A DNA stretch of 35,495 nt. Source: Fidelibacterota bacterium. GTDB lineage: Bacteria; Fidelibacterota; Fidelibacteria; Fidelibacterales; Fidelibacteraceae. Position numbers and translations under genes: made by a program. Location: NCBI GenBank assembly GCA_030620575.1, contig JAUXEL010000002.1, forward strand, positions 1 through 35,495, in the 5' to 3' direction. Below, piece after piece: positions 19,488 through 32,684 of this stretch (position 1 is its first letter; each line of letters begins with the position of its first letter). Below the pieces are notes generated by a model. It was not told where the DNA came from. It did not search any database and saw only the letters and a list, made by a program, of their open reading frames with translations.

Positions 19488-19509
19488 AAAAAACTTGCCC
19501 CAAGTTTTT
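19488..19509. repeat. Isolated copy of the REP palindrome found around the RAYT gene
   Basis: AAAAAACTTGCCCCAAGTTTTT; shares the AAAAACTTGCCCCAAGTTTTT core with copies at 31.9 and 32.6 kb. Confidence 0.85.
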
Positions 19510-29504: not shown

Positions 29505-29776
29505 ACCCGTTGTGTGAAACACAAATTCAAGTCACAAATTATTAAAAACACCATAAATAATGTCATCTCGACTAAGTCCGCCGAAATAGAATGAAGGCGG
29601 GCGCATGGAGAGATCTCAAAATAATCAAATTAATTTAAAAATTGTTCTTCTCTTTAATTTCCGTAAAATAATTTGAGATTTCTCCACTCGTTCGTTCCTC
29701 TCTCGGTCGAAATGACATCAAAAAAGCTATTGACAGCATGCGATTCCCATTTTTTAATCTGTTTCACACAACGGGT
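29505..29776. mobile_element. Nested inverted-repeat element (MITE-like candidate)
   Basis: Perfect 17-bp inverted termini ACCCGTTGTGTGAAACA / TGTTTCACACAACGGGT enclose an inner inverted pair (29560-29718: ATGTCATCTCGAC...GGAGAGATCTCAAA versus TTTGAGATTTCTCC...GTCGAAATGACAT). Confidence 0.6.
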
Positions 29777-29908
29777 GATCTTATTAAAACCTATTCTCAC
29801 AGCTTCTTTTACTCTCTGCTCTACGCGCATGACAGATCGCGTTTCACCGCTTAAGCCCACTTCTCTGATGATAGCGGTATTATCCGGGATGTGCAATTTA
29901 TTAATCAA
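29777..29908 (-). pseudogene. Decayed partial duplicate of radA
   Basis: Minus-strand 'PDNTAIIREVGLSGETRSVMRVEQRVKEAVRIGFNKI' matches intact RadA 'SDNTVIIGEVGLTGETRSVLRIEQRVKEALRMGFDHL'. Homology stops at the inverted-repeat terminus. Confidence 0.85.
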
Positions 29909-30478: not shown

Positions 30479-31825
30479 CTATACTTGTTGCCCTGTCAAC
30501 TCTGCAATATCTTTAATATATTTAAATGTATCCTTTTTATCATCGATCTTCTTTTTCGCAGATGCGGGCAAAATAAGGTGGTCGAAACCCATGCGTAGCG
30601 CTTCTTTCACTCTCTGTTCAATCCGTAAAACAGATCGCGTTTCACCAGTTAAGCCCACTTCCCCAATAATTACTGTATTATCTGATAGTGGAATATTTTT
30701 TACCGATGAGTAGATCGCCGCAATGACCGGCAGATCCATAGCAGGTTCTTTAAGTGTTAGTCCGCCCACCACATTGACAAAAATATCATATTGGCTTACC
30801 GATATGTCCAATTGCTTTTCAATAATAGCAAGCAAAAGTTGAAGACGTTTTGGGTCCAGACCACTGGCATGGCGCTGAGGTGTGCCGTATGCTGCCTGTG
30901 CTGCCAAGGCCTGGATCTCGACCAGCAATGGCCGGCTTCCTTCCATGCCACAGGTAACGACCGAACCTTTCGCTCCTTTTTTCCGTTCACTTAAGAACAT
31001 ATCTCCCGGGTTTGTTATCCCGATCAGACCTTCCTGCTTCATTTCAAAGATACCGATCTCATGGGTGGCACCAAAACGGTTCTTTACAGAACGCAATATT
31101 CTAAAGTAATGCTGCTTATCTCCTTCAAGATATAAAACCGTATCAACAATATGTTCCAGTAATTTCGGACCGGCAATAATACCGCCCTTAGTAATATGTC
31201 CAATAAGAATTATTGTAATATTTTCTTTCTTTCCACATGCCATCAATTCACTGGCGCATTCTCGTACTTGATTGACTGACCCGGGAAGTGAATCCGAATT
31301 GGGTGAATAGCTGGTTTGAATGGAATCAATAACGGCAATCTGAGGTTTTTCCGATTCAAGTCCGGCCAGTATTCGACTTAATTCAATTTCGTTGCTTATT
31401 TTCAGTTCATTATTCTGCAATCCAATTCGTTTTGCACGCAATGCAAGCTGTCCGACCGACTCTTCCCCGCTGAAATAGCAAACCTTGATCTTCTTTTCGA
31501 CATATTCTTTACATAGTTGTAAAGCAAGTGTAGACTTCCCTACTCCGGGATCGCCACCCAACAGGACAATACTGCCCTCCATAAGTCCGCCACCGACCAC
31601 CCGATCGAATTCCCCGATCCCACTGGTATAACGTGAGGGTTGCTCCGGATTTGATAATGAATAAAAAGGAGGAGGTGAGCCCGGCTTAACCCTTTTAAAC
31701 GATACTTCTACGGGTTCATAAACTTCGAGAGTATTCCATCCCTCGCAGTGCGGACACTGTCCCTGCCATTTTGCCGTAACACCATCGCAGACAGTACATT
31801 TATATTGTTCTTTATGTTTTGCCAT
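30479..31825 (-). CDS. radA: DNA repair protein RadA/Sms
   Basis: Zinc motif 'CTVCDGVTAKWQGQCPHCEGWNT', Walker A 'GGDPGVGKSTLALQL', 'KNRFGAT' motif, Lon-like C-terminal domain. Confidence 0.98.
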   Translation of the reverse strand: MAKHKEQYKCTVCDGVTAKWQGQCPHCEGWNTLEVYEPVEVSFKRVKPGSPPPFYSLSNPEQPSRYTSGIGEFDRVVGGGLMEGSIVLLGGDPGVGKSTLALQLCKEYVEKKIKVCYFSGEESVGQLALRAKRIGLQNNELKISNEIELSRILAGLESEKPQIAVIDSIQTSYSPNSDSLPGSVNQVRECASELMACGKKENITIILIGHITKGGIIAGPKLLEHIVDTVLYLEGDKQHYFRILRSVKNRFGATHEIGIFEMKQEGLIGITNPGDMFLSERKKGAKGSVVTCGMEGSRPLLVEIQALAAQAAYGTPQRHASGLDPKRLQLLLAIIEKQLDISVSQYDIFVNVVGGLTLKEPAMDLPVIAAIYSSVKNIPLSDNTVIIGEVGLTGETRSVLRIEQRVKEALRMGFDHLILPASAKKKIDDKKDTFKYIKDIAELTGQQV

Positions 31826-31894: not shown

Positions 31895-31916
31895 AAAAAC
31901 TTGCCCCAAGTTTTTT
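31895..31916. repeat. REP palindrome copy 1 (CCCC orientation)
   Basis: AAAAACTTGCCCCAAGTTTTTT. Confidence 0.9.
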
Positions 31917-31973
31917 CGAACTTTTTGTGACGTCGGTCACGGATATTTTGATTAATTTTCATTATATTTTTAT

Positions 31974-31994
31974 AAAAACTTGGGGCAAGTTTTT
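31974..31994. repeat. REP palindrome copy 2 (GGGG orientation)
   Basis: AAAAACTTGGGGCAAGTTTTT, reverse complement of copy 1. Confidence 0.9.
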
Positions 31995-32022
31995 ACTAAA
32001 GGGATGAAAAATGTGATGTAAA

Positions 32023-32634
32023 ATTGACGATTTCATAAATGGAAATTATTTCCATTTTTATAACCGAACCTTTGATCAACATTTGTTGTTTTATGATGAA
32101 GATGATTATGAGTTATTTCTAAATTTATTTAAGTATAATTTAGACAAAATTCCGGCTAGTGTTTTTGCATATTGTTTAATGCCAAACCATTTTCACTTTC
32201 TATTAAGACAGGACAGTGATAAAAAATTGTATCATATATTTAATTATGCTCTTATTGCTTATGTCCAGCGCTACAATAAGAAATACGGTAGAAAAGGACC
32301 ATTATTTCAATCACCATTACAGCATAAGCTTGTAGAAAATCAGGAATATTTACTTCAGCTTTGTAAGTATATACACATTAATCCAGTGAAAGCCGGACTT
32401 GTAGAATATCCGGAAAACTGGATCTATTCAAATTACCTTGAATGGGTAAAATTACGTACAGATACCTTATTCGCGAAAGAAATTCACAGTGATTATTTTC
32501 CCCATCCGGAAGATTATATTTCTATGATCTCAACATACAAGCAATATCTTACAATTAAAAATTTTAGAAGACTTTTAATGGATGATAAGGAGGAAAAACT
32601 TGCCCCAAGTTTTTTATATGAATTTACCCCTTAA
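32023..32634 (+). CDS. REP-associated tyrosine transposase (RAYT, Y1_Tnp / IS200-like HUH fold); start uncertain
   Basis: 'INGNYFHFYNRTF' N-terminal motif (upstream of the listed TTG start), HUH motif 'CLMPNHFHFLLRQ', Tyr region 'AYVQRYNKKYGRKGPLFQSP', 'YIHINPVKAGLVEYPENWIYSNY'. Flanked by REP palindromes. Confidence 0.9.
   Translation: MDDFINGNYFHFYNRTFDQHLLFYDEDDYELFLNLFKYNLDKIPASVFAYCLMPNHFHFLLRQDSDKKLYHIFNYALIAYVQRYNKKYGRKGPLFQSPLQHKLVENQEYLLQLCKYIHINPVKAGLVEYPENWIYSNYLEWVKLRTDTLFAKEIHSDYFPHPEDYISMISTYKQYLTIKNFRRLLMDDKEEKLAPSFLYEFTP
32594..32615. repeat. REP palindrome copy 3, inside the RAYT coding sequence
   Basis: AAAAACTTGCCCCAAGTTTTTT, identical to copy 1; lies in the codons for C-terminal (E)KLAPSF(L). 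Confidence 0.92.
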
Positions 32635-32661: not shown

Positions 32662-32684
32662 AAAAAACTTGGGGCAAGTTTTTT
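32662..32684. repeat. REP palindrome copy 4 (GGGG orientation)
   Basis: AAAAAACTTGGGGCAAGTTTTTT. Confidence 0.9.

Follow-up and report, generated by a model that had tools for sequence, protein, structure and literature searches.

Does a transposase gene that ends inside a palindrome use that repeat to encode part of its own enzyme, or did its reading frame run on into a repeat that was already beside it? This question was raised by a 35,495-nucleotide (nt) stretch, referred to here as the window, of contig JAUXEL010000002.1 from an uncultured, marine-group Fidelibacterota bacterium. In the window, the reading frame of a REP-associated tyrosine transposase (RAYT) extended through a repetitive extragenic palindrome (REP) before its stop codon. 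The overlap is real and phylogenetically narrow. It adds a further case to an arrangement already known and is not a coding tag. Very probably, the original stop codon was lost and the frame then read through into a flanking REP that was already resident.

The palindrome and the frame that ends in it

The palindrome AAAAACTTGCCCCAAGTTTTTT at the 3' end of the RAYT frame (REP copy 3, Table 1) was identical over 22 nt to copy 1, upstream of the gene. Translation of the frame gave the end ...DDKE-EKLAPSFL-YEFTP*, in which the palindrome was read as (E)KLAPSF(L), C-terminal to both the HUH and Tyr motifs. The first-pass annotation of this DNA had described the base-for-base match, the encoded peptide and the stop codon in the same terms. 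The palindrome was AT-rich and consisted of a 9-bp stem and a CCC loop, AAAAACTTG-CCC-CAAGTTTTT(T). It contained no stop codon in any of the six frames, and an open reading frame (ORF) that lost its stop beside it must therefore read through.

The four copies around the RAYT gene formed two inverted doublets, which folded as long hairpins and bracketed the one gene. A fifth copy was located at position 19489. The window gave 7 palindrome matches, counted on both strands, against a shuffle mean of 0.01. The window's genome (G000) is a metagenome-assembled genome (MAG) of 1.64 Mb in 199 contigs, and a pattern search of it at up to 3 mismatches gave 43 + 47 strand hits, whereas the reversed control gave 0; a chance origin of the palindrome was rejected on these counts. 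After de-duplication at up to 4 mismatches, 58 copies remained, often spaced by 67–97 nt, so that the genome-wide mapping proposed in the first-pass annotation yielded a dispersed family. A GT(A/G)G head was looked for beside the palindrome, and GTRG occurred within 8 nt on the 5' side in 1 of the 58 copies and on the other side in 1; a GTAG/CGTC head for this REP family was accordingly rejected. No other REP copy of the genome was found in a real gene, the remaining overlapping ORFs (~100–145 residues) being without a family match above cut-off.

The same REP family was also observed in another genome, G001 (L150), with 17 strand hits. No RAYT was found in that genome, which is 72% complete, or in the ~0.5 kb of readable contig upstream of its porA gene. 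These REPs are possibly orphans left after loss of the RAYT.

Distribution and origin of the tail

The order radA–RAYT–porA was found in the window's genome and in G003, G006 and G008, with partial contigs from G004, G005, G007 and G009; porA denotes a pyruvate:ferredoxin-oxidoreductase-like gene. The REP-coded tail was present only in two sister species, the window's species and G004 (L034, contig JAGLUM010000286), whose tail was KLASSFLYEFTP*. The other complete orthologues of the genus ended before the REP at the same locus (FISSV*, ESNL*, SVI*, LSF* and FRKF*). Among relatives from Cloacimonadota, the C-termini were LLFD*, LLDEA* and NKRT*, and the REP began at a distance of no more than tens of nt; two relatives of this phylum, L042 and L045 (45% and 40% identical), had their stop codon inside the repeat. 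The repeats of these orthologues and relatives, including those at the RAYT of other genus members, were mostly different palindromes from the window REP. A KLAPSF-like ending, which the first-pass annotation had proposed to look for in close homologues, was thus shared by the sister species and lacking in the other complete genus orthologues and in Cloacimonadota, an outcome close to the chance read-through that the annotation had named as its own alternative. Read-through in this genome only was rejected, since the sister species has the same overlap, and a coding tag conserved by homology was rejected because the other complete orthologues lack it.

Overlap of this kind recurred among RAYT genes. 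In 85 relatives with both flanks present, a repeat common to both flanks (k = 14) was wholly contained in the coding end in 7 (6 once L064, whose alignment ran through the stop, is removed), touched the stop codon in 12 and started no more than 30 nt after it in 36, while shuffled controls gave 0–1. A repeat overlapped the 3' coding end in ~18 of 84 RAYT relatives, a generous figure, as some of the 12 stop-touching cases did so by a single base. The peptides encoded by the repeats were unrelated to one another (KLAPSF, KRGQATF, SSSDLERK and RRTVLL).

The tails of the two sister species differed by 2 changes in 39 nt, one of them non-synonymous. This change, the only base that differed between the two palindromes (C/T at 32605), gave P197S, and the downstream partner copy carried the same C/T change. 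The REP loops of the window's genome were CCCC in 19 exact copies and CCTC in 10, whereas those of G004 were CCTC in 13 and CCCC in 1. The residue thus matched the commonest loop of each genome and, because the partner copy outside the gene tracked the same majority, the protein residue follows the repeat. In the predicted structure, tail residues 190–205 were disordered, with a predicted local distance difference test (pLDDT) score below 50.

These observations bear on whether the tail was recruited as functional protein, for example by contacting the REP hairpin, such that DNA site and protein co-evolve. The tail and its stop codon were kept in two species, and C-terminal tail residues of E. 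coli TnpA-REP contact the GTAG motif (PMC8266576), both of which would fit such a role. The tail is missing from the other complete genus orthologues, the peptides of REP-overlapping relatives are unrelated, the sole amino-acid difference tracks the REP variant of each genome, and the tail is predicted to be disordered; recruitment is very improbable on this evidence. Similarly improbable is selection of the tail as a functional element in which one DNA stretch serves as both substrate and enzyme part, with the enzyme co-adapted to the REP's loop variant through the P/S difference. The meaningful coding tag of the first-pass annotation was not supported by the same comparison of orthologues, peptides and predicted disorder.

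On the read-through account, a vertically inherited RAYT gene between radA and porA, with an inverted doublet of its cognate REP on either side, would have carried a REP at or just past its stop codon, as RAYT genes commonly do. The original stop would have been lost in the ancestor of the two sister species, and the frame would then have extended through the adjacent stop-free palindrome to the next stop just beyond. We infer this loss, because no intermediate was found among the relatives compared. The 13-residue tail would be a tolerated by-product without function of its own, and the palindrome would be retained as the DNA site of the enzyme, as a single-stranded hairpin, and not as protein.

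Alternatively, RAYT-driven movement could have placed a REP copy in the 3' end of the gene; in-frame REP insertions have been published for subclass 2.4 tnpA-REP genes (PMC6006769). Copy 3, however, is one arm of a doublet that mirrors the upstream doublet, and relatives often have a repeat at or just past the stop codon; a resident flanking REP is therefore the simpler source, and insertion is unlikely.

Several points weigh against read-through as a tolerated accident. The tail and its stop codon have been kept since the split of the two species (89% identity, synonymous divergence dS ~0.5), which is longer than expected of a fleeting accident. The tail, at 2 changes in 39 nt, was too short for a test of selection. 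The third close relative, G009 (64% identical), was unreadable at its 3' end, as the contig ended inside the gene, and a search for a porA orthologue in G009 as a route to this end gave weak matches only. The low pLDDT of the tail was partly due to the alignment, in which only two rows covered it.

The enzyme and its start codon

Fold and context identify the product of the window gene as a RAYT-type enzyme, as the first-pass annotation had proposed. The protein matched the Pfam family Y1_Tnp (PF01797) above cut-off, and matched NCBIfam NF047646 (REP_Tyr_transpos) at 69.8 bits (E = 2e-19), below the curated cut-off of 80. It had the HUH motif and single catalytic Tyr of a Y1/IS200-like fold, and residues His58, His60 and Tyr118, numbered from position 32017, were invariant in 21 relatives. 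The AlphaFold model had a mean pLDDT of 84.8, and its best structural match was 4ER8, E. coli TnpA-REP in complex with a REP hairpin (E = 2.3e-9); 4ER8 was also the sole match in a profile search of the PDB (E = 1e-5). The RAYT features of flanking inverted copies of a genome-dispersed palindrome (4 flanking, ~58 in the genome) and of flanking loops that track the genome majority (CCCC in G000, CCTC in G004) were both present, and the GT(A/G)G head next to the palindrome was absent. The palindrome is likely to be the cognate repeat of this RAYT, and the protein may recognize it. The window's genome also contained another, distant RAYT-like gene (~31% identity), whose flanks differ (G000:C176, L032; L123 and L124), and relatives of it were present in G004 and G007.

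The start of the gene was less regular than its end. The first-pass annotation had placed it at 32023, where the codon is ATT. The sole in-frame ATG (32011–32013) was directly followed by TGA (32014–32016). The sister species had ATG AGA TGT at this site, most relatives began with M(R/K)C, and codon 2 was a sense codon in the ATG-started relatives. Downstream, the next ordinary start in frame was TTG at 32083, and its use would remove the first predicted β strand (residues 11–18). As assembled, the gene carried this nonsense codon and was otherwise without lesion.

Table 1. Features of the RAYT locus in window coordinates
Feature	Position	Strand	Detail
REP copy 1	31895..31916	+	9-bp stem, CCC loop; left arm of upstream inverted doublet
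REP copy 2	31973..31994	-	right arm of upstream inverted doublet
Ancestral start ATG, then in-frame TGA at codon 2	32011..32016	+	AGA in sister species
RAYT (Y1 HUH transposase) reading frame	32017..32634	+	HUH N57-H60; catalytic Tyr Y118 in YIHINP
REP copy 3	32594..32615	+	in 3' end of RAYT frame; left arm of downstream inverted doublet
Rest of tail	32616..32634	+	translation: end of L codon, YEFTP, stop TAA (32632-32634)
REP copy 4	32662..32683	-	right arm of downstream inverted doublet

The window copy might accordingly be a decaying pseudogene, in which case the overlap would be an untranslated frame beside a REP. The TGA at codon 2, where ATG-started relatives have a sense codon, and the loss of a β strand from the next ordinary start make this a serious prospect, if somewhat short of an even chance. 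Against it, no further lesion was present, and the sister species has an intact gene that still runs into its REP. Between the two species the body of the gene gave a non-synonymous divergence (dN) of 0.059 and a dS of 0.545, a ratio of 0.11 that indicates purifying selection, and the branch of the window's genome showed no excess change (4 vs 7 derived). A single base in a MAG may, moreover, reflect error or strain variation. Given the selection on the body and the lack of a surplus on this branch, the TGA would be a recent inactivation, a lesion bypassed by a rare-codon start, or an artefact of assembly or strain. A decaying copy is compatible with the read-through origin and differs only on the present expression of the window copy.

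Surroundings and known systems

Two further observations were made around radA (30479–31825, minus strand). An 84-residue ORF just beyond it (29654–29908, minus strand) contained 43 residues that were 60% identical to RadA 375–417, and it is probably a piece of radA left by a partial duplication. The radA–RAYT intergenic region contained a TGAC-N5-TCAC-like motif (31925–31945), which was found in the same place in L115, L116, L117 and L120. The TCAC was invariant in the five genomes despite REP turnover around the motif, which bears a resemblance, and only that, to a CRP/FNR-type regulator site.

Repeats at the ends of RAYT genes have been described before. REPs were reported often to lie beside the rayt stop codon or directly after it (Nunvar 2010, PMC2817692), repeats overlapping the 5' and 3' ends of tyrosine transposase genes were marked as 5'ov and 3'ov and intragenic REPs were listed (Di Nocera 2013, PMC3733652), and a 2018 survey reported subclass 2.4 tnpA-REP genes that carry in-frame REP insertions (PMC6006769). 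The view of the first-pass annotation that REPs only flank these genes is thus not upheld by the literature.

The window locus resembles the RAYT/TnpA-REP REPtrons (PMC2817692; 4ER8) in its Y1 HUH transposase and flanking inverted copies of a dispersed palindrome, but here the AT-rich palindrome lacks the GT(A/G)G head and has ~58 copies, the stop codon lies beyond the REP, and the phylum of the host is outside those first described. In the 3'ov genes of the RAYT/TIRYT type (PMC3733652), a flanking REP or terminal inverted repeat likewise overlaps the 3' end of the transposase gene, and some intragenic REPs are at the ends of coding regions; the repeat family and the host differ here. Subclass 2.4 TnpA-REP (PMC6006769) also translates the cognate REP within an unbroken transposase frame, whereas the window REP forms a C-terminal tail. 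The Rickettsia RPE palindromes (discussed in PMC3733652) similarly add residues to proteins as mobile palindromes, although their repeat and genes are unrelated.

The locus adds to the known systems a REP/RAYT pair from Neomarinimicrobiota whose AT-rich palindrome has no GTAG head, and a RAYT fixed at one locus (radA–RAYT–porA) in a genus that has seen turnover of the repeat. It also provides an example of a stop-free palindrome lengthening an adjacent reading frame, and a small worked case in which a protein residue, proline or serine, tracks the genome-wide sequence of a repeat.
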